NCBI GenBank assembly: GCA_020850695.1
Contig: JADZEF010000040.1
Location: forward strand, 1-64,000
Direction: 5' to 3'
DNA from: Planctomycetaceae bacterium
GTDB taxonomy: Bacteria; Planctomycetota; Planctomycetia; Planctomycetales; Planctomycetaceae
Length of the DNA stretch: 64,000 nt
Part shown: piece after piece, positions 2,444 to 14,260 of the stretch
Layout: every line of letters begins with the position of its first letter
Numbering within the stretch: position 1 is the first letter of the stretch
The notes under the pieces: model-generated
What the model was told of the DNA's origin: nothing
What the model saw: the letters and a program-made list of their open reading frames with translations, nothing else
The model's database searches: none
Program-made: the position numbers and the translations under genes

Positions 2444-3595
2444 ATGGCGATTCAGTTTGGCTGCCCGCACTGTTCCGCACATCTTGAAGTCAAAGACGCC
2501 GCCGCGGGCAAGAAGCGAAACTGTCCTCGATGCGGCGGGGTGTTGGTTGTCCCCACGCCGGTGCTGCCTTCACCGGAATCCGTCGCAACGGCTGGTCCAA
2601 ACCAGTTCCCGTCTCCGTTTTCGCAGCCGTCAAATGACACCGCTCGTGCCGCGCTGGATTGGGCACCTGTCGCAAGCGCTCCGTCTGTATCCCCGGCGGT
2701 CACATCAGCAGGGAGCCCTTTTACCTTCCCGGACTCCGGGGATCTCAAACCTCTTCCACATTCAAATCCGCCGGTGGAACCTGCCGAAAACGCTCACGTG
2801 ATGAGTAACGGCGTCTGTTCGGTCTGCGGATGTTCCGAGAGCTTCCTGTCCAAATTCGATACTGGTTGCCGTCCTCCGCCAGATCAAGTCGCCGATTTGA
2901 GCGCGATACCGGCCGATATTCCGGCAGGTGAAGTCTGGTTTGAAGTGCGACTGGACAGCGGTGAAATTCGGCGATTCAAGCAGGTTCAACAGCTTTGCGA
3001 CTTGCTGATTGCTGGATCAGCCAATCGTTTCACGCAGGGGCGCGAACTCTATGCAAAGCCTTCGGGCACAGGTGACGACCAAGTCGCTGCGCTGGAAATC
3101 TGGAAGACTCGCACGTCCTGGCTTCCGATCGGCTCCGGCCTCCTGCACAACAACTATGCGGTTCATGAGCTGTACGACCCGATCGGCGCGAATGTGAAGT
3201 ACGGCGTGCAGATCGCCTGTGGGGTGCTTTTTTTCGTTATCTTTTTCGCGGTGTTCGGGATGGAGTCAAGCCGAGGATTTGGAGCAGGAAGTTTCTATCG
3301 ATACGTTGTCGAGAGTTCGACTCCCGGCCAGACCGGAAAAACCTACCTAATTCTGCTGGTAGTTTATGCCGTGGCACTGGGTGCAATGGCAGCTGTTGGC
3401 GCCGGCCTGTCCGGAGTTCCCCTCGGTTTTGCCGCAGGGTACGGTGTCGGTATCTATCGGTTCTCTCGGATCCGTCGCCCGCCGCCGGACCAGTTCCCCG
3501 GCAAATCTGGCGTCGCAACCTATGGTTGGGCGTCTTTGGCGTGCGTAGCAACTCTGTTTGTCGGCCTCGCGTTTTTGATGATGCGGCGCAGCTAG
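2444..3595 (+). CDS. Zinc-ribbon membrane protein, hypothetical
   Basis: This 383-residue protein starts with a zinc ribbon (FGCPHCSAHLEVKDAAAGKK then CPRCGG, residues about 4-30), the N-terminal module common in planctomycete membrane proteins. A Pro/Ser-rich linker follows (about 35-120). A second Cys pattern, CSVCGCSESF, lies near residue 123. A soluble beta-rich segment then includes VWFEVRLDSGEIRRF. The C-terminal third has three or four membrane spans (CGVLFFVIFFAVF, TYLILLVVYAVALGAM, AAGYGVGIYRF, WASLACVATLFVGLAFLMM). The ATG at 2444 puts the zinc ribbon first. Function is unknown; regulation or protein-protein contact at the inner membrane is a guess. Confidence 0.75.
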   Translation: MAIQFGCPHCSAHLEVKDAAAGKKRNCPRCGGVLVVPTPVLPSPESVATAGPNQFPSPFSQPSNDTARAALDWAPVASAPSVSPAVTSAGSPFTFPDSGDLKPLPHSNPPVEPAENAHVMSNGVCSVCGCSESFLSKFDTGCRPPPDQVADLSAIPADIPAGEVWFEVRLDSGEIRRFKQVQQLCDLLIAGSANRFTQGRELYAKPSGTGDDQVAALEIWKTRTSWLPIGSGLLHNNYAVHELYDPIGANVKYGVQIACGVLFFVIFFAVFGMESSRGFGAGSFYRYVVESSTPGQTGKTYLILLVVYAVALGAMAAVGAGLSGVPLGFAAGYGVGIYRFSRIRRPPPDQFPGKSGVATYGWASLACVATLFVGLAFLMMRRS

Positions 3596-3685
3596 CGCTC
3601 CGCCGCTGGCCCACCCTGTTTTGGAACGACCGCGTTCCGAACCCCTACAGTTACAGCCTCAGTTGCTCCTCCAGGAAGCGTGCCG

Positions 3686-5074
3686 ATGCTGACGATTCTG
3701 GGTTCAAAGCAGCAGTACTGTGACGGAATGCGCCGTCGCGATTTCCTACGGATCGGGGCGCTGGGCGGCGCACTGTCGCTGCCCGAGTTGCTGCTGGGGC
3801 GGGCTCAGGCAGAAACGGCCGGCCGGTCGTCGCGGAAAGCCGTCATCATGGTCTGCCTCAACGGCGGGCCGAGTCACCTCGACATGTACGACCTGAAGCC
3901 GAAGGCGCCGGTCGAGATCCGCGGCGAGTTCGAGCCGATTCCCACCAACGTGCCGGGCATCGAGATCTCCGAACTCATGCCGATGCAGGCCCGCATCGCG
4001 GACAAGCTGGCGATCGTTCGCAGCGCCCAATGGCCTCTCGATGACGGTCATCACCTGCATTTGATGTTCAGCGGGTTTCGCAAGACCGACCAGCGACCGT
4101 CTTTCGGATCGATCGTCAGCCGTGTTCGCTCGGAGCGGGGGGTGAAAGATCCGCTGCCGCCGTACATCAGCATGGCCCAGTTTCCCCCGCACCCGGTGCT
4201 GGCGGGGCACGAGGAACCGACCTATGTCGGGGCGCGGCATCGGCCGTTCGTCCCCTGGACGGCCGGCGACCTGATCAACACGCAGATCAACTACACCGGC
4301 CCGGGAATGGGAGCGATCAAGAACCTCGATCCGGTGGACGGCGTGACGCTCGGCCGCATGTCGAGCCGTTCCTCGCTGCTGGCCCAGCTCGATCGCTTTC
4401 GCAGCGAAGTCGATGCGCGGGGAGAAATGGACGGCGTCGACTCCTTCACGCATCGCGCGCTCGACATGATCAGCTCGCCCCGGGTGCGCGAGGCGCTCGA
4501 CCTCAGCAGGGAGCCTCCCGAAATGCACGCTCTGTATGGCGGTGACATTCCGTGGAAGGGGGACCCGGATCCCCGCCGCTGCTGGGAAGGAAGCAAGTTT
4601 CTAATGGCGCGGCGGCTGGTTGAGGCCGGCGTTCCCGTCGTCACGCTGGCCGCTGGCGTGTGGGACACGCACAGCATGCATTTCCCGTATCAGCGGGGCT
4701 ATGTTCCCTTGCTCGATCGTTCGATCCACGCGCTGGTGACCGACCTCCACGCCCGCGGGATGGACAGGGACGTGGCGGTGGTGGTGTGCGGAGAGATGGG
4801 GCGCACGCCGCGGGTGAACAAGTCCGCCGGCCGAGACCATTGGGCTCCTGCCGGCTTTGCATTGTTCGCCGGCGGCGGCCTGAGGATGGGTCAGACCATC
4901 GGCGCGACCGACGCCCAGGGGGACCGTCCGGCAACTCGCCCTTACGGACCGCAGAACATTCTGGCCACGCTTTATCACGTGTTGGGAATCGACACCACTC
5001 TCACGTTTCCCGATCACGCGGGCCGGCCGCGGTATGTGCTGGACGATCGCGAGACGATCGCCGAGCTGATGTGA
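3686..5074 (+). CDS. DUF1501 protein (Tat-exported)
   Basis: This second DUF1501 protein (462 residues) begins MLTILGSKQQYCDG, the typical opening of this family, followed by the Tat motif RRRDFLRIGALGG and the signal end ELLLGRAQA. Core motifs are present: GGPSHLDMYDLKPKAPVEIR, VPGIEISELMPM, VCGEMGRTPRVN and AGRDHWAPAGFALFAGGG. The ATG at 3686 is preferred over the GTG two codons earlier because it matches the family start. It runs toward the NHL-repeat gene on the other strand, with only about 60 bases between the stops. The molecular function of the family is not established. Confidence 0.92.
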   Translation: MLTILGSKQQYCDGMRRRDFLRIGALGGALSLPELLLGRAQAETAGRSSRKAVIMVCLNGGPSHLDMYDLKPKAPVEIRGEFEPIPTNVPGIEISELMPMQARIADKLAIVRSAQWPLDDGHHLHLMFSGFRKTDQRPSFGSIVSRVRSERGVKDPLPPYISMAQFPPHPVLAGHEEPTYVGARHRPFVPWTAGDLINTQINYTGPGMGAIKNLDPVDGVTLGRMSSRSSLLAQLDRFRSEVDARGEMDGVDSFTHRALDMISSPRVREALDLSREPPEMHALYGGDIPWKGDPDPRRCWEGSKFLMARRLVEAGVPVVTLAAGVWDTHSMHFPYQRGYVPLLDRSIHALVTDLHARGMDRDVAVVVCGEMGRTPRVNKSAGRDHWAPAGFALFAGGGLRMGQTIGATDAQGDRPATRPYGPQNILATLYHVLGIDTTLTFPDHAGRPRYVLDDRETIAELM

Positions 5075-9418: not shown

Positions 9419-9538
9419 CTGGCAGCGCCGGTCGCGCGGTGCGTGCGTTGCGGAAAAATTTCCGCGAACGCCGTGAACCTTTCGCGAGCCGACTGCGTCT
9501 TCCTGAACGAACCGGTTGCGGTTCTTGCGAATTCCAGT

Positions 9539-9655
9539 ATGCAAACCTTCGATCAAGCCATGTCGACCGCACAACTCGCCATCCTGGCCGCCGATTCGAT
9601 GCAGGTAGGGCTCGCGTATGCGATGTCCCATCTGGATCAGCTTCTCGCCGGATGA
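9539..9655 (+). CDS. Possible 38-residue small protein
   Basis: A short frame starts at the ATG at 9539 and reads MQTFDQAMSTAQLAILA then DSMQVGLAYAMSHLDQLLAG, an amphipathic helical sequence. It ends about 27 bases before a strong intrinsic terminator. A longer in-frame start at 9443 adds residues without clear character. A small protein or just a 3' UTR of the kinase transcript are both possible. There is no homology that I recognise. Confidence 0.35.
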   Translation: MQTFDQAMSTAQLAILAADSMQVGLAYAMSHLDQLLAG

Positions 9656-9681
9656 TGCCGCGTCTTCTCTGCGACCCGCAG

Positions 9682-9714
9682 AGGCCCGGCATCGTCAGGA
9701 TGCCGGGCCTTTTT
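9682..9714 (+). terminator. Rho-independent terminator
   Basis: A 12-bp GC-rich stem (aggcccggcatc with gatgccgggcct) with a 5-base loop is followed by a short T run at 9710-9714. It lies between the kinase/small frame and the first tRNA, so it insulates the tRNA array from upstream transcription. Confidence 0.85.
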
Positions 9715-9747
9715 CGTGCGCAGAGGCTTCTTGATTCTTCCGATCTT

Positions 9748-9819
9748 GTGCTCTTGGCCGAGCGGCAGAGGTTCCGGACTTCCAATCCGGCAAGGCGGGT
9801 TCAACTCCCGCAGAGCACT
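9748..9819 (+). tRNA. tRNA-Gly (TCC)
   Basis: A 72-base cloverleaf. The acceptor gtgctct pairs with agagcac and the discriminator is T. The anticodon stem ccgga/tccgg encloses loop cttccaa, giving anticodon TCC. The T arm is gcggg-ttcaact-cccgc. No CCA is encoded. It reads GGA codons and is the first member of the array. Confidence 0.9.
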
Positions 9820-9823
9820 TTAG

Positions 9824-9923
9824 GAAGTGGGTAGTGGATAGTTGGTAGTGGGTAGGCAGCAGAAGGCAGCGGAGCGTCAAGCCTCTTCTGGCTACCCATT
9901 ATCAACTGCCCACTACCCACTTC
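9824..9923 (+). repeat. Long inverted repeat, family A copy 1 (tRNA spacer)
   Basis: The left arm 9824-9855 and right arm 9892-9923 are 32-base near-perfect inverted repeats built from the motif GTGGGTAGT. Only about four positions differ, three of them G-T wobble pairs in RNA. The loop is about 36 bases and has a further small stem (cagaag/cttctg). It fills nearly all of the Gly-Gln spacer. Confidence 0.9.
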
Positions 9924-9928
9924 TCTCC

Positions 9929-10002
9929 TGCGGGATCGTCGCTGCTGGTAGCGATACCGGGCTCTGAACCCGGGGGCGCAGGTTCGATTCCTGCTCCCGC
10001 AA
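9929..10002 (+). tRNA. tRNA-Gln (CTG)
   Basis: A 74-base cloverleaf. The acceptor tgcggga pairs with tcccgca, a U1-A72 start typical of Gln, and the discriminator is A. The anticodon stem ccggg/cccgg has loop ctctgaa, giving anticodon CTG. The T arm is gcagg-ttcgatt-cctgc. It reads CAG. Confidence 0.92.
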
Positions 10003-10007
10003 TTTTG

Positions 10008-10104
10008 GTGGGTAGTGGGCAGTTGATAGTGGATAGCCAGAAGGGAGAGTTCAAGCTCTATCGCTTCTTCGCTGGCTACCCACTACCAACTATCCACTAC
10101 CCAC
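10008..10104 (+). repeat. Long inverted repeat, family A copy 2 (tRNA spacer)
   Basis: The arms 10008-10039 and 10073-10104 are 32 bases each and nearly perfect inverted copies (GTGGGTAGTGGGCAGTTGAT with its complement). The motif is the same as copy 1 with independent base changes, so the copies share origin but have drifted or been rearranged. It lies between tRNA-Gln and tRNA-Ser. Confidence 0.9.
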
Positions 10105-10109
10105 TCTCC

Positions 10110-10197
10110 GGAAGTCATCCGGCCGGATGAGGAGCCTGATTCGAAATCAGGTGGCGGGGACATTCCCCGCTTGTGGGTTCAAGTCCCACGGCTTCCG
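10110..10197 (+). tRNA. tRNA-Ser (CGA)
   Basis: An 88-base class II tRNA. The acceptor ggaagtc pairs with ggcttcc and the discriminator is G. The anticodon stem cctga/tcagg has loop ttcgaaa, giving anticodon CGA. A long variable arm (gcgggg acat tccccgc) is diagnostic of Ser. The T arm is gtggg-ttcaagt-cccac. It reads TCG. Confidence 0.93.
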
Positions 10198-10209
10198 CTC
10201 AAGATCCAA

Positions 10210-10324
10210 GGTGCGAAAAGGTATGAAGAGGTGCAAAGCGGTGTGAAATGGCAGGAGCTATTTTCGGAGATCAATCCTCCAGCCTCTTCACACCTCTTCG
10301 CACCATTTCTCACCTCTTCGCACC
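10210..10324 (+). repeat. Long inverted repeat, family B copy 1 (tRNA spacer)
   Basis: The arms 10210-10251 and 10283-10324 (42 bases each) are imperfect inverted repeats. Each arm is a run of 10-11-base units of the form GGTGYGAARA. The loop is about 31 bases. It has different sequence from family A but the same architecture and the same position between tRNAs. Confidence 0.88.
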
Positions 10325-10339
10325 CTGCTTCTTGCTTCT

Positions 10340-10412
10340 CGTCCCGTGGCCCAGCGGCAACGGCACCTCCCTCACATGGAGGCATTCGGTGGTTCGAGTC
10401 CACCCGGGACGA
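10340..10412 (+). tRNA. tRNA-Val (CAC)
   Basis: A 73-base cloverleaf. The acceptor cgtcccg pairs perfectly with cgggacg and the discriminator is A. The anticodon stem cctcc/ggagg has loop ctcacat, giving anticodon CAC. The T arm is ggtgg-ttcgagt-ccacc. It reads GTG. Confidence 0.9.
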
Positions 10413-10436
10413 CTCTTGGATTGTCTTGTTCGATTC

Positions 10437-10504
10437 GCGTGACTGACGCGCCACACCGCGTGGCGCCCGGCGGAAGTTGCGGGTTCGAGTCCCGCCGCAC
10501 GCGC
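10437..10504 (+). pseudogene. Degenerate tRNA-like sequence without a D arm
   Basis: An intact T arm (gcggg-ttcgagt-cccgc, 10479-10495) is followed by cgcacgc, of which five bases pair with gcgtg at 10437. Only about 41 bases lie between the acceptor strand and the T arm, too few for a D arm plus anticodon arm. The centre is a strong hairpin (gcgccac-accgc-gtggcgc). Its best 7-base loop (caccgcg) would give CCG with A at position 33. This looks like a deleted or rearranged tRNA, possibly once tRNA-Arg. A functional D-arm-less RNA cannot be excluded. Confidence 0.55.
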
Positions 10505-10505
10505 T

Positions 10506-10578
10506 GTGGCCGTCCTGTGCTGGTTCAGGACTCCGGCTGTGAACCGGGGTTACGGTGGTTCAATTCCGCCCGGTCACC
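10506..10578 (+). tRNA. tRNA-His (GTG)
   Basis: The acceptor gtggccg pairs with cggtcac and the discriminator is C, as expected for His. The anticodon stem is tccgg/ccggg with loop ctgtgaa, giving anticodon GTG. The T arm is ggtgg-ttcaatt-ccgcc. The base before position 1 is T, so the G-1 normally encoded by bacterial tRNA-His genes is absent from the DNA. It lies one base after the degenerate tRNA-like sequence. Confidence 0.92.
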
Positions 10579-10584
10579 TTGGCA

Positions 10585-10680
10585 AGTGGGTAACAATTAG
10601 TTGGTAGTGGGTAGCCAGAACAAAGCCGCTGACAGTTTTCTGGCTACCCACTACCCACTATCAACTACCCACTACCCACT
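10585..10680 (+). repeat. Long inverted repeat, family A copy 3 (tRNA spacer)
   Basis: The left arm 10585-10619 and the longer right arm about 10639-10680 carry the family A motif (GTAGTGGGTAGCCAGA against its complement). The left arm is shorter and contains an aacaatta interruption. The right arm has an extra ctaccca unit. It lies between tRNA-His and tRNA-Asp. Confidence 0.85.
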
Positions 10681-10687
10681 GAATTAC

Positions 10688-10762
10688 GTCCTCGTGGAGC
10701 AGCCCGGAGTGCTCGCCGCCCTGTCACGGCGGAGATCGCGAGTTCAAATCTCGTCGGGGACG
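10688..10762 (+). tRNA. tRNA-Asp (GTC)
   Basis: The acceptor gtcctcg pairs with cggggac and the discriminator is G. The anticodon stem ccgcc/ggcgg has loop ctgtcac, giving anticodon GTC. The T arm is gcgag-ttcaaat-ctcgt. The cloverleaf is normal and reads GAC/GAT. Confidence 0.93.
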
Positions 10763-10768
10763 CTCGAA

Positions 10769-10910
10769 GCGAAGTGCGAAAAGGTAAGAAGAGGTGCGAA
10801 AAGGTGTGAAGAGGCAGATCGAAAGAGCCGCGCCCAGCGAATTCGCTTCGCGGTGTTCCTGCCATTTCGCACCTCTTCACACCCTTTCGCACCTCTTCGC
10901 ACCCCGCTTC
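10769..10910 (+). repeat. Long inverted repeat, family B copy 2 (tRNA spacer)
   Basis: The left arm 10769-10817 and right arm 10859-10910 are about 50 bases each. They are made of GGTGCGAAAA / GGTGTGAAGA units and their complement. The loop holds a second palindrome, gcgaattcgc. It lies between tRNA-Asp and tRNA-Tyr. Confidence 0.88.
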
Positions 10911-10916
10911 CCCCCC

Positions 10917-10998
10917 GCGTCGGCTGGGCATTGGCGAGCCTCAGTGGCTGTAACCCACCTGTCTTCGGACTTTGGCGGTTCAACTCCGTCCCGACGCA
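10917..10998 (+). tRNA. tRNA-Tyr (GTA)
   Basis: A class II tRNA of 82 bases. The acceptor gcgtcgg pairs perfectly with ccgacgc and the discriminator is A. The anticodon stem gtgg/ccac has loop ctgtaac, giving anticodon GTA. The variable arm (ctgtcttcggacttt) is long, as in bacterial Tyr. The T arm is ggcgg-ttcaact-ccgtc. Confidence 0.92.
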
Positions 10999-11003
10999 CT
11001 CAC

Positions 11004-11076
11004 GGCCCGTTCTTCTAACGGTTCAGGATGCGAGCCCCTCAAGCTCGCAATGCGGGTTCGACTCCCGCACGGGTCG
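11004..11076 (+). tRNA. tRNA-Glu (CTC), C33 variant
   Basis: The acceptor ggcccgt pairs with acgggtc and the discriminator is G. The D arm (ttctaacggttcaggat) matches the bacterial Glu pattern. The anticodon stem cgagc/gctcg encloses ccctcaa, giving anticodon CTC but with C instead of the near-universal T at position 33. A sixth G-C pair extends the stem. The T arm is gcggg-ttcgact-cccgc. It reads GAG if functional. Confidence 0.85.
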
Positions 11077-11098
11077 CTCTCTTCGACGAAACACACAC

Positions 11099-11183
11099 GA
11101 CCAGGTGGTGGAACGGCAGACACACAGCGCTCAGAACGCTGCGCCTCGAAAGGGGCATGGGAGTTCAAGTCTCCCCTTGGTCA
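11099..11183 (+). tRNA. tRNA-Leu (CAG)
   Basis: A class II tRNA of 85 bases. The acceptor gaccagg pairs with cttggtc and the discriminator is A. The anticodon stem cagcg/cgctg has loop ctcagaa, giving anticodon CAG. A long variable arm follows (cgcctcgaaaggggcat). The T arm is gggag-ttcaagt-ctccc. It reads CTG, expected to be the main Leu codon here. Confidence 0.92.
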
Positions 11184-11187
11184 CTGG

Positions 11188-11311
11188 GGGCAGGGTGCGA
11201 ACGGGTATGAAAGGGTGTGAAAAGGTGCGAAGAGGCAGGAAAGCAATTCGTCTCAAGATCCTGCCTCTTCGCACCTATTCGTACCTCTTCACACCCCTTC
11301 GCACCGTGCCC
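11188..11311 (+). repeat. Long inverted repeat, family B copy 3 (tRNA spacer)
   Basis: The left arm 11188-11240 and right arm 11259-11311 (53 bases each) are inverted copies made of GGTGCGAAGA-type units, with a small loop of about 18 bases. This is the longest and most regular of the six spacer hairpins. It lies between tRNA-Leu(CAG) and the CAT tRNA. Confidence 0.9.
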
Positions 11312-11318
11312 TCCGCTC

Positions 11319-11387
11319 TGCGGGTGGGCCAGTGCTCAGCGGGGCCTCATAAGCCTTGCTCGCCGGGTGCGACCCCCGGACCCGCGA
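11319..11387 (+). tRNA. Aberrant tRNA-Met-like (CAT)
   Basis: A 69-base sequence. The acceptor tgcgggt pairs with acccgcg through a T1-G72 wobble, and the discriminator is A. The anticodon stem ggggc/gcctt has loop ctcataa, giving anticodon CAT. The T arm is ccggg-tgcgacc-cccgg, with G in place of T55. The D region (gccagtgctcagc) lacks the G18-G19 pair and folds poorly. The weak 1-72 pair recalls initiator tRNA, but the anticodon stem lacks the three consecutive G-C pairs of initiators. Met or lysidine-type Ile identity cannot be decided. Confidence 0.6.
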
Positions 11388-11436
11388 CTTGATGAACGAT
11401 GAAGAGTTCCGCGAGATTTCGCGGGCTCGTGACGGC

Positions 11437-11509
11437 CGGGTACGCCAATGGAAGAGCGGCGTGCTTGAGGTGCACGTGTTTGTGGGTTCGACTCCCACCT
11501 CGGTCACTT
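11437..11509 (+). tRNA. Aberrant tRNA with GAG anticodon and short variable loop
   Basis: A good 73-base class I cloverleaf. The acceptor ggccggg pairs with ctcggtc and the discriminator is A. T8-A9 are present. The D loop contains GG. The anticodon stem cgtgc/gcacg has loop ttgaggt, giving anticodon GAG. The variable loop is only tgttt. The T arm is gtggg-ttcgact-cccac. GAG would mean Leu (CTC/CTT), but bacterial Leu tRNAs are class II with a long arm. Amino-acid identity is therefore uncertain. It ends 18 bases before the RNA ligase start codon. Confidence 0.75.
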
Positions 11510-11527
11510 TGGAGTATTGGTGACATC

Positions 11528-12184
11528 ATGGCGGCAACGCCTCTGACCTATCCCAAGATCCCCGGATCCAAAGGCTGTCCTGGCACGCAGTGCATCGCCT
11601 TTGAAAAGTACGACGGAACCAACCTTCATTGGACCTGGGACCGTGACTTCGGCTGGCACGAGTTCGGAACGCGACGCGACTCCTTCCAGTTGACACCGGA
11701 CGGAGTCTCGGAGTTCTGCAGAGCACACACAGAACTGAGGCGTGCCTCGGACATCTTCCGACAGACCATCGCCGACGGTATCGAAGCGGTCCTGAAATCA
11801 CATGGCGAATATCAGAAGGCTCAGGAAGTTCGCATCTTCACGGAGTTCCTCGGCCCTCGCTCATTCGCCGGACGGCATCAGGCAGACGACGACCATTATC
11901 TCAAGCTCTTCGATGTGGAGATTGTCGGGAATGGCATCGTCCCACCGCTGCGCTTCGTTGAGGACTTCCAACACCTCGCGATCGCTCGCGTGATCTACCG
12001 GGGACGGCTGACGGGACGATTCGCTGAAGACGTCAGACAGGGACGATATGGCGTTAATGAGGGCGTGGTATGCAAAGGAGGGACGGGAAAGTCAGATCTC
12101 TGGATGGCCAAGATCAAGACCAATGCGTATCTCGAACGACTGAAGCAGGCGTTCGCAGACCGCTGGGAAGAGTATTGGGAGTAG
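11528..12184 (+). CDS. RNA ligase (nucleotidyltransferase superfamily) inside the tRNA array
   Basis: This 218-residue protein has the ordered motifs of ATP-dependent RNA ligases. Motif I is EKYDGTN with the adenylated lysine at residue 27. An FGTRRD segment corresponds to motif Ia. Motif III is RIFTEFLGPRSF, IIIa is LKLFDVE, IV is NEGVVCKGG and V is WMAKIKT. It has little beyond the catalytic core, so it is a minimal ligase of the Rnl2/PF09414 type. Such enzymes seal 3'-OH/5'-phosphate breaks in RNA and act in tRNA repair in phages. The ATG at 11528 is the first in-frame start after the upstream tRNA. The stop codon lies 4 bases before tRNA-Thr, so the gene must share transcripts with tRNAs. 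Substrate is inferred, not shown. No end-healing kinase/phosphatase is next to it. Confidence 0.88.
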   Translation: MAATPLTYPKIPGSKGCPGTQCIAFEKYDGTNLHWTWDRDFGWHEFGTRRDSFQLTPDGVSEFCRAHTELRRASDIFRQTIADGIEAVLKSHGEYQKAQEVRIFTEFLGPRSFAGRHQADDDHYLKLFDVEIVGNGIVPPLRFVEDFQHLAIARVIYRGRLTGRFAEDVRQGRYGVNEGVVCKGGTGKSDLWMAKIKTNAYLERLKQAFADRWEEYWE

Positions 12185-12188
12185 GCCG

Positions 12189-12259
12189 GGTCTTCAGGTG
12201 TTCCGGCGGCACGCCGCATTGGTAGGGCGGAAGACCGGGTTCAATTCCCGGGAGGACCT
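12189..12259 (+). tRNA. tRNA-Thr (GGT)
   Basis: The acceptor ggtcttc pairs with gaggacc and the discriminator is T. The anticodon stem is ccgca/ggcgg with one A-G mismatch at its base near the loop. The loop ttggtag gives anticodon GGT. The T arm is ccggg-ttcaatt-cccgg. The D stem has only three pairs. It starts 4 bases after the RNA ligase stop codon, so its processing must cut close to the mRNA end. It reads ACC/ACT. Confidence 0.82.
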
Positions 12260-12272
12260 TTTTCGACAACAC

Positions 12273-12345
12273 GGGCTGGCATGTTCCTTGGGGGCGACTG
12301 ATCCTTGCAAGATCGGTGCGGTGGGTTCGATTCCCATCCGGTCCA
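12273..12345 (+). tRNA. tRNA-Ala (TGC)
   Basis: The acceptor gggctgg pairs with ccggtcc with two wobbles, and the discriminator is A. The anticodon stem tgatc/gatcg has loop cttgcaa, giving anticodon TGC. The T arm is gtggg-ttcgatt-cccat. Position 8 is C rather than T, and the D stem (gtt/gac) is short, so the D arm is divergent. The usual Ala G3-T70 wobble is present. It is the last element of the array. Confidence 0.78.
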
Positions 12346-12385: not shown

Positions 12386-14260
12386 TCAATCGCCGCTGCG
12401 CTTCTTGAGCGCTTCCTCGCGGGCTCGCTTCCGCTCGACAATCCGCTCGATCGAATCGCTCGGGATCGCCGCAATGAGGCGCTTGGTGTAGGCGTCTTTC
12501 GGATCGGCATAGATGGCGTCCGACGGGCCGAACTCGACGATCTTACCCTTGTTCATGACGGCCATCATGTCCGACATGAACTTCACCACGCTCAGGTCGT
12601 GGCTGATGAAGATGTAGGTCAGGCCGCGCTGCTCCTGCAGCCGTTTCAGCAGGTTAAGCACCTGGGCCTGGACCGAGACGTCGAGGGCGGAGACCGATTC
12701 GTCGCAGATGATGAACTCGGGTTCGACCGCCCACGCGCGGGCGATGCACAGCCGCTGCCGCTGGCCGCCGGAGAATTCGTGCGGGTAGCGACCGAGATGC
12801 ATCGGCAGCAGGCCCACCTCGCTCAACAGTGAAGCCGCCTTGTCGCGACGGTCGCGGGCCGACTTGCCCAGCCCATGCACCGACATGGCTTCCGTCAGCA
12901 TCGACTCGACCGTCATGCGGGGATTGAGCGACGCATACGGATCCTGAAAGACGATCGTGATCCGTCGCCGCAAGTCACGCAGCGCCCGTCCCGCAAGCTG
13001 CGACAGCGGTTGACCGTCGAACGTCACGTTGCCTCCGGTCATCGAAATCAACCGCAGGATCGCTCGTCCCGTGGTCGTCTTCCCGCATCCTGACTCGCCC
13101 ACCAGTCCCAGTGTCTGCCCGCGGAACACTTCGAAGCTGATCCCGTCGACCGCTTTCACGAAGTCGACGGTACGTCGCAGCATTCCTTTCTTGATCGGGA
13201 AGTAGACCTTCAGGTCGTTCACGCTCAAGAGCGGCGTTTGCCCCTCGGGGATTGCGGTCGCCCCGGCCGGCAGTTTGGCAGGATCGAACGGGTGGCCGAT
13301 CCGCTCGAGAACCGACTTCGGATGCAGGAGCCGCCCGCGCCCCTGGGTCGACAGCGACTTCAGCCGCGCCTCGTCGAGCGGTTTCTCGACAATTCGTAGT
13401 TCCCCTCCTTCCTCCTTCACGTCCATGAAGTCGGCGACCGTCGGCAGGACGCGGTAAGGCGTGTCGAGACGCGGACGGCAGGCCAGCAGCCCCTTGGTAT
13501 AAGGGTGCTTCGGCTTCTGGAAGATGTTGAGGACCGTGTCGTACTCGACCACCTTGCCGCGGAACATCACCGCCACTTCGTCCGCGATTTCCGCAATCAC
13601 GCCCAGGTCATGCGTGATGAACAGGATCGACATGCCCCGCTGATCGCGCAGGCGGCGGATCAGATCGAGGATCTGCGCCTGGATGGTGACGTCGAGCGCC
13701 GTGGTCGGTTCGTCGGCGATCAGCAGCTTCGGGTTGCAGCAGAGCGCCATCGCAATCATGACGCGCTGCTTCTGACCTCCCGACATTTCGTGCGGGTAGC
13801 TGTCCACACGCGTCGCCGCATCCGGAATGCCGACTTCCTCGAAGAGCTTGATCGTCCGCTCGCGGGCTTCCTCGTCCGAGACGTCCTGATGGAGCTTGAT
13901 CGCTTCCATCACCTGCCAGCCCACCCGGTAGACAGGGTTCAGCGACGTCCCCGGCTCCTGAAAGATCATGCTGACGTCGCGCCCGCGGATGGCGGGCATC
14001 TCCTTCGCCGGCAGCCGCACCAGGTCGCGTCCCAGCAGCGAAATGCTTCCTGCTTCGATCTTCGCCGAAAATTCCGGCAGCAGCCGCATGATGGTCAGCG
14101 ACGTGACCGACTTCCCCGATCCGGACTCGCCGACCAGCCCCAGCGTCTGCCCTTCGCGGATCTGGATGCTGACGTCGTCGACCGCCTTCACCGTCTGGCC
14201 GTCGGTGTGGAAGTACGTCTTCAGTCCGCGGATGTCGAGAAGCGGCGGGGCGGCGGTCAT
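12386..14260 (-). CDS. Fused oligopeptide ABC transporter ATP-binding protein (DppD-DppF type)
   Basis: This 624-residue protein contains two ABC ATPase domains in one chain. The first (about 5-330) has Walker A GESGSGKS, signature MSGGQKQR and Walker [13 protein letters not shown]. The second (about 350-600) has [16 protein letters not shown] and [12 protein letters not shown]. The order and the C-terminal Asn-Pro-type sequences match the DppD and DppF subunits of peptide/nickel importers, usually separate genes of about 330 residues each. No permease or binding-protein gene is adjacent. The ATG at 14260 begins [13 protein letters not shown], the normal start. It ends 40 bases from the last tRNA, on the opposite strand. 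Confidence 0.92.

Follow-up and report, generated by a model that had tools for sequence, protein, structure and literature searches.

The RNA ligase gene at 11528-12184 of the 64,000-nucleotide stretch of DNA analyzed here (the window; part of contig C40 in a draft genome of 8.6 Mb and 440 contigs) lies within an array of tRNA genes that follows a leader with a short reading frame, an intrinsic terminator and a competing antiterminator. The existence of this leader is well supported by covariation among related arrays, and the ligase is probably part of a second tRNA set, expressed conditionally behind the leader attenuator and switched on when translation fails.

The array (9748-12345, 2.6 kb) is densely packed on a single strand. 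ARAGORN with default settings detected 12 tRNAs on the + strand (9748-12260), and a relaxed scan added tRNA-Ala(TGC) and an Ala(GGC)-like unit, the latter doubtful, which bears out the run of fourteen tRNA or tRNA-like units around the ligase described in the initial annotation, with one unit in doubt. Seven of the tRNAs reached the Rfam gathering score in a search of the window. The features of the array are as follows, with the detecting method in brackets.

9748-9819, + strand: tRNA-Gly(TCC), first array unit (ARAGORN, Rfam)
9929-10002, + strand: tRNA-Gln(CTG) (ARAGORN, Rfam)
10110-10198, + strand: tRNA-Ser(CGA) (ARAGORN)
10340-10413, + strand: tRNA-Val(CAC) (ARAGORN, Rfam)
10427-10502, + strand: Ala(GGC)-like tRNA-like unit, doubtful (relaxed ARAGORN only)
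10506-10578, + strand: tRNA-His(GTG) (ARAGORN)
10688-10763, + strand: tRNA-Asp(GTC) (ARAGORN, Rfam)
10917-10999, + strand: tRNA-Tyr(GTA) (ARAGORN)
11004-11077, + strand: tRNA-Glu(CTC) (ARAGORN, Rfam)
11099-11184, + strand: tRNA-Leu(CAG) (ARAGORN, Rfam)
11319-11388, + strand: tRNA-Met(CAT) with an odd T-arm, GGGTGCGACCCCC, a signature for finding related arrays (ARAGORN)
11434-11507, + strand: tRNA-Leu(GAG), directly 5' of the ligase gene (ARAGORN, Rfam)
11528-12184, + strand: RNA ligase gene (homologue starts, Pfam, PHROG, motifs, AlphaFold)
12188-12260, + strand: tRNA-Thr(GGT), directly 3' of the ligase gene (ARAGORN)
12273-12345, + strand: tRNA-Ala(TGC), final array unit (relaxed ARAGORN)
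9824-9923, 10008-10104, 10209-10324, 10580-10680, 10771-10903 and 11188-11311: inverted-repeat spacers

With 28-55 bits, compared to 52-79 bits for the majority of tRNAs elsewhere in the genome, the array tRNAs should be regarded as real but poor genes; they are degenerate and may perform poorly in translation. Ordinary counterparts were recognized for 11 of the 13 isoacceptors among the 40 other loci read in the genome (G000), and no ordinary copy of Ser(CGA) or Glu(CTC) was seen among them. By reading and without a control, nine of the ten isoacceptors comparable with loci L220-L259 were seen to differ between array and ordinary tRNA at position 37 or 38 of the anticodon loop. The spacers consist of long inverted repeats with arms of 33-53 nt, composed of two units of degenerate, low-complexity sequence (GTGGGTAGTGG.. 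and GGTGCGAAAAGG..); similar spacers occur in the related array L140, but are built from other units. The T-loop of the array tRNA-Met reads TGCGA instead of TTCGA (window 11346-11383), a feature kept across families in all related arrays.

The ligase gene starts with ATG at 11528, ends with TAG at 12184 and codes for about 217-218 amino acids. A longer open reading frame starting at 11399 was rejected as the ligase gene, because the homologues begin at the same point as the ATG at 11528. The gene follows the end of tRNA-Leu(GAG) by 20 nt and precedes tRNA-Thr(GGT) by 3 nt, so that the adjacency noted previously holds, but not its exact figures of 18 and 4 bases. The product contains the nucleotidyltransferase motifs I (EKYDGTN), III (FTEFLG), IIIa (LFDV), IV (EGVVCKG) and V (MAKIKT), and an alignment of 37 homologues shows K26, D28, G29, E105, E177, G178, K194 and K196 to be invariant and F127 and K182 nearly so. 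Matches to the Pfam family RNA_ligase (PF09414; E=2.3e-6, 28.3 bits versus a cut-off of 27) and to phrog_548, annotated as 'RNA ligase' (E=3.2e-8), together with the predicted fold, agree with the original assignment from motifs I, IV and V. The AlphaFold model (pLDDT 93.3, pTM 0.89) finds its nearest PDB folds in the Naegleria RNA ligase, T4 Rnl2, an archaeal ATP-dependent RNA ligase, T4 Rnl1 and trypanosome REL1 (E from 3e-7 upward, TM-scores of about 0.5-0.6), relatives that required a fold search, since sequence searches of the PDB gave chance hits only. A viral model of nearly equal length (A0A8S5L9G8) fits better than any of these (TM 0.78). Fold and motifs are thus shared with T4 RNA ligase 2 and the Naegleria enzyme, but sequence identity is only 15-16%, and the C-terminal domain of Rnl2 is absent from the model, whose chain stops after motif V and one further helix; the protein is therefore classified as Rnl2-like and minimal rather than as an Rnl2 proper. 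As judged from sequence and model, it is a minimal Rnl2-like nucleotidyltransferase and a predicted RNA ligase.

Homologues of the ligase are found in cyanobacteria, Chloroflexota (Herpetosiphon), Armatimonadota, many planctomycetes, viral contigs and huge phages, and no plasmid-borne homologue was found. Within the class, 45 of 398 genomes carry the gene. Most homologues (those of cyanobacteria, Chloroflexota and other planctomycetes) stand alone as orphan genes, at a large distance from any tRNA; ten non-array ligase loci scanned at the Rfam gathering score contained neither a tRNA nor another RNA family, and the non-array ligases have no conserved protein neighbor beyond species-level synteny. 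A general linkage of the homologues to tRNAs, which had been proposed as a check, thus does not hold for the majority, but six of the 45 ligase-bearing genomes, belonging to four lineages, do carry the gene within a tRNA array, far more than expected by chance: the window genome, G381 (L020), G333 (L021), G645 (L118), G592 (L074/L139) and G525 (L140). Random placement would yield about 0.006 array-borne cases, with a probability of about 7e-11 for at least four lineages, if one assumes about eight array-bearing ligase genomes (a count read from the searches) and an array length of about 6 kb per 7.5 Mb. The window, L020 and L021 have the same local order of tRNA-Leu, ligase, Thr(GGT) and Ala(TGC). 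In the ligase tree, the three copies from genus g19 form one supported clade and the window ligase branches elsewhere at a position that is not fixed; a single clade of all array ligases is not rejected (AU p 0.093).

As seen from the arrays, the ligase is present in only 6 of 48 examined, and two of these copies (L074 and L140) are frameshifted as recorded, from which we conclude that it is dispensable. It appears as an optional passenger, and the array with its leader therefore has to be considered the main object. The same numbers bear on the proposal that the ligase matures the array by circularizing or re-joining aberrant tRNA precursors, with no role in damage repair. Such a function would fit the short distances of 20 and 3 nt to the flanking tRNAs, with which the gene probably shares a transcript, and the long inverted repeats formed by the window spacers, but it is highly unlikely in view of the forty-odd arrays that do without this ligase, the location of most ligase genes outside arrays and the fact that no intron-like insertion was noticed in the array tRNAs.

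Related arrays are widespread in the class. The odd T-arm of the array tRNA-Met (GGGTGCGACYCCC pattern) gave matches in 46 of the 398 genomes, as opposed to none for the reversed pattern, and the degenerate arrays reach about 40 tRNAs in an order that is conserved across planctomycete families. The fullest order reads Phe Glu Pro Ile Lys Ile Lys Thr Gly Pro Asn Gly Gln Gln Ser Val Leu Leu Asp Leu Tyr Glu Leu Met Leu Val Thr Ala Ala Ser Arg Ser His Trp Thr Arg Arg Arg Cys, and the window array represents a reduced form of it. The same genome has a second array on contig C123 and smaller groups on C242, C72, C174 and C274. The initial annotation knew of no described planctomycete unit of this layout; array-borne ligases do recur in planctomycetes, but degenerate planctomycete tRNA clusters as such were already published in 2016 (PMC4807772). 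These are probably the same arrays, as they are described to contain many partly degraded tRNAs together with a canonical Ile(UAU); no ligase was found in the text dealing with them, and a leader is not mentioned in that account of the clusters.

The leader of the window array consists of three elements.

9539-9655, + strand: leader reading frame of 38 codons, MQTFDQAMSTAQLAILAADSMQVGLAYAMSHLDQLLAG, with the stop codon TGA at 9653-9655; positioned as in the 36 aligned leaders
9651-9660, + strand: 5' segment of the antiterminator, GATGATGCCG, which includes the leader stop codon; ten consecutive pairs with 9687-9696, covariation
9683-9714, + strand: intrinsic terminator, GGCCCGGCATC-GTCAG-GATGCCGGGCC-TTTTT; -24.7 kcal/mol, covariation, hairpin enrichment

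The terminator is located 33 nt before the first tRNA, and its 5' arm doubles as the 3' segment of the antiterminator (9687-9696), which yields two alternative folds of -27.3 kcal/mol (antiterminator, z -4.1) and -24.7 kcal/mol (terminator). The leaders of the family share this layout: a short frame, a TGA stop within the antiterminator, the terminator, and the first tRNA 20-60 bases further on. The hairpin typically reads GCCCGGTGTCA...GACACCGGGC-TTTTTTT. Since its stem extends into the T-run, the attenuator escaped a standard terminator scan; hence, a stricter scan was applied to up to 350 nt of upstream sequence, which recognized the hairpin in 29 of 46 arrays, compared to 17 of 848 control stretches. 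Many of the arrays that it missed have a stem with imperfections or begin close to the end of a contig, and the leader of L074 was recognized by eye.

Thirty-six leaders, selected by the terminator and a following tRNA and not by the TGA, were aligned. In all of them the frame ends in a TGA 26-39 nt before the terminator, and TGAC or TGATG is present at a fixed distance in 36 of 36 cases (the TGA being sought over 14 start positions). This TGA opens the segment TGACACYTGG, which is complementary to the 5' arm of the terminator, pairing on average at 6.6 of 7 positions in register as compared to 0.3-4.6 of 7 out of register. Of the alignment cells, 98.6% are paired in the terminator helix, in which both sides have changed at four pairs, and 93.7% in the antiterminator helix, in which this applies to three. 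None of 500 shuffles, which do not preserve relatedness, scored as high in pairing or covariation for either helix, and helices slid along the alignment, which do preserve it, were paired in only 34-40% (terminator) and 14-52% (antiterminator) of the cells. The two alternative folds are similar in energy across the family (medians of -21.2 and -20.4 kcal/mol), and in 31 of the 36 leaders the stop segment pairs with the arm at no fewer than five of seven positions. The clearest compensatory change is seen in the window itself, where all three leader segments have changed in concert (GATGATGCCG / CGGCATCGTC / GATGCCGG). A search with the terminator pattern only, leaving out the TGA, found 48 of the 398 genomes of the class and none in the control; 30 of these loci were read, about 14 of them from outside the 36-leader set, and TGAC occurred at the right distance in 28 and a tRNA within 300 nt in 27, with the two loci devoid of TGAC being devoid of a tRNA as well. 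No Rfam family was listed over the leader in the scans of the window and of some related arrays, and it would represent a new regulatory RNA.

Substitutions in the leaders of genus g19 are distributed over codon positions 1, 2 and 3 as 160/218/196, i.e., with no third-position bias, and the case for translation of the frame therefore rests on the indels, which are mostly frame-preserving in the groups whose frame was correctly called, and on the fixed position of the TGA.

The conservation of arrays and leaders also bears on the view that the arrays are degenerate relics, consisting of horizontally acquired and dispensable pseudogene tRNAs with the ligase as a chance passenger. The low tRNA scores, the scattering of array tRNAs over several contigs of the window genome and the two frameshifted ligases would agree with it, as does the published account, which in its treatment of the clusters views them as horizontally acquired and possibly dispensable (PMC4807772). 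We nevertheless consider a relic improbable, because of the three-way compensatory change in the window leader itself, the covariation over 36 leaders, the array order conserved over families, the intact motifs of the ligases from the window and three relatives, and the recurrence of RNA-related cargo in the arrays.

We favor instead the arrangement outlined at the outset, in which the array is switched by translation of its leader. A ribosome terminating at the TGA of the leader would shield roughly the next dozen bases, which correspond to the antiterminator segment, so that the terminator could fold and the array would stay off. If translation of the leader failed or was too slow, the antiterminator segment would pair with the terminator arm first and the polymerase would enter the array. 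Since the stop codon lies inside the antiterminator, any unfinished translation of the leader should switch the array on; the leader alone predicts a response to failed leader translation, not what causes the failure. Candidate causes are tRNA cleavage, a shortage of charged tRNA or inhibition of the ribosome. Once on, the array would supply the cell with divergent replacement tRNAs and, in the window genome, with an Rnl2-type ligase from the same transcript, made only under these conditions. Rnl2-type ligases seal 3'-OH/5'-phosphate ends, and the enzyme might accordingly be envisaged as resealing tRNAs or other RNAs broken in this manner, as an optional repair enzyme of the replacement set, with breaks carrying 2',3'-cyclic-phosphate and 5'-OH ends left to the single RtcB that a genome search revealed. 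The window genome contains one further match to PF09414, in a LigD-like ORF. No end-healing partner of the ligase was recognized; the genome does code for AAA_33 kinases, none of them near the array and the best one fused to a phosphotransferase-like domain as judged by eye. As regards the anticodon-nuclease defense considered earlier, no AAA_13 protein of the PrrC/RloC type was matched in the window genome.

Further genes within the arrays point in a similar direction. A different PF09414 RNA ligase (E=2.9e-12) is encoded in array orientation at 9473-10252 of array L201 (G732:C44), in a genome from the family of the window organism, and a divergent EF-Tu paralogue (Pfam GTP_EFTU, 8.6e-53) at 3138-4313 of array L213 (G481:C6), likewise in array orientation, which might serve the unusual array tRNAs. 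Open reading frames inside the arrays also code for Band_7/slipin proteins (five arrays), endonuclease V (three), HNH proteins (six), an ADP-ribosylglycohydrolase (one) and methyltransferases (several). In addition, a 'CGHDERHW' protein with the motif FLCGHDERHWFVAA and no Pfam or PHROG match is found in 11 of the 48 arrays (L020, 7260-8063 on the - strand; L074, 9292-9966; nine further arrays). As judged from these sequence matches, the cargo favors a theme of RNA or tRNA quality, though it is heterogeneous. As a separate observation, array L196, which also holds slipin and endonuclease V genes, contains a match resembling the YrlA-type Y RNA (12203-12336 and 12400-12511; 50 bits, E=2e-8), which falls short of the gathering score of 69; no YrlA-like match above gathering was obtained in L191, L197 or L198, and other weak Rfam hits were treated as chance. 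ADP-ribosylglycohydrolase genes lie beside or inside tRNA clusters in L025 (IMGVR_UViG_3300028558_000791), L187 and L021 (15870-16811), a proximity seen in planctomycete arrays as well as on a viral contig of 480 kb.

The association of stand-alone ligases with tRNA clusters in phages, mentioned in the initial annotation, is documented for jumbo phages (PMC7824862) and extends to the huge-phage homologues found here. Ligases with 31-38% identity are encoded by the huge phages LR756511, LR756502, LR745206 and LR745208, and one with 28% identity by XacN1. The ligase of LR756502 lies within about 2 kb of a run of 14 tRNAs (14 tRNAs within 5 kb), that of LR745208 near five tRNA-Leu genes, and the 480-kb viral contig codes for a ligase of 48% identity, with tRNAs and an ADP-ribosylglycohydrolase gene at a distance of 3.6-4 kb. 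Because the huge-phage relatives occur near tRNAs, phages may be the source of the ligase or even of the entire concept. One might go further and regard the unit as a phage-type counter-defense module settled in chromosomes, i.e., a captured huge-phage tRNA cluster with an Rnl2-type ligase, either kept or decaying, whose tRNAs replace host tRNAs cut by anticodon nucleases. Jumbo phages are indeed known to use RNA ligases and tRNAs for counter-defense (PMC7824862), phage tRNAs with altered anticodon loops escape nucleases (PMC10264068), and the differences at position 37 or 38 in nine of ten window-array tRNAs, read without a control, would be in line with this. However, the window array is flanked by host-type genes (a kinase upstream, an ABC transporter and enolase downstream, from ORFs read by eye), order and attenuator are common to several planctomycete families, and cellular homologues far outnumber viral ones among the close relatives, which makes such a module a rather unlikely reading. 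Of the earlier suggestion of a phage relic, the phage ancestry is plausible, but a simple relic is unlikely given the host flanks, the cross-family order and the compensatory change in the leader. A phage origin would, moreover, be compatible with the switch proposed here.

Each ingredient has a known counterpart, but the literature searched contains no description of an attenuator that precedes a widespread chromosomal tRNA array. Attenuators of amino acid operons of the trp type consist of a leader reading frame with mutually exclusive antiterminator and terminator structures; the array leader differs from them in controlling tRNA genes, in having no run of regulatory codons and in carrying its stop codon inside the antiterminator. 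A close parallel is the trn operon of Anabaena sp. PCC 7120, a long redundant array of 26 tRNAs on the delta plasmid, which is normally kept silent by the repressor TrcR and is induced by antibiotics targeting translation, with TrcR also controlling rtcB (PMC10272220). It differs from the planctomycete arrays by its plasmid location, its unlinked RtcB and a DNA-binding repressor acting at the promoter in place of a leader attenuator. The jumbo-phage clusters with Rnl1, Rnl2 or RtcB (PMC7824862) share tRNA genes and a PF09414 ligase, some of them adjacent, but are phage-borne and have no known conserved isoacceptor order or attenuator. The tRNA array units of Mycobacterium (PMC5966550, PMC12803027) likewise provide a near-complete second set with divergent anticodon domains and a proposed antidefense role, but belong to mycobacteria, where their location is on linear plasmids, phages or chromosomes, and no RNA ligase term occurs in PMC12803027. 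Finally, the rsr-yrlBA-rtcBA operon (PMC7790460) also codes for RNA repair functions and is induced by damaged tRNAs, but is controlled by the enhancer-binding protein RtcR, employs RtcB as ligase and has no tRNA array.

For mycobacteria, cyanobacteria and phages alike, there is no agreement on the function of long redundant tRNA arrays. The presence of a conserved switch before an entire family of chromosomal arrays implies that these arrays are regulated, and it suggests translation failure as a testable trigger; the model predicts array expression upon such failure, as in the unrelated Anabaena trn operon (PMC10272220), and the two different in-array ligases and the EF-Tu paralogue suggest that the stress involved is tRNA damage. 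As a tentative generalization, planctomycetes may keep a ribosome-monitored backup kit of near-complete divergent tRNAs, accompanied in some arrays by RNA-quality proteins such as a ligase, an EF-Tu paralogue or slipin, which would be held off by an attenuator with a stop codon in its antiterminator and released when leader translation fails, for example because anticodon nucleases are destroying the ordinary tRNAs.
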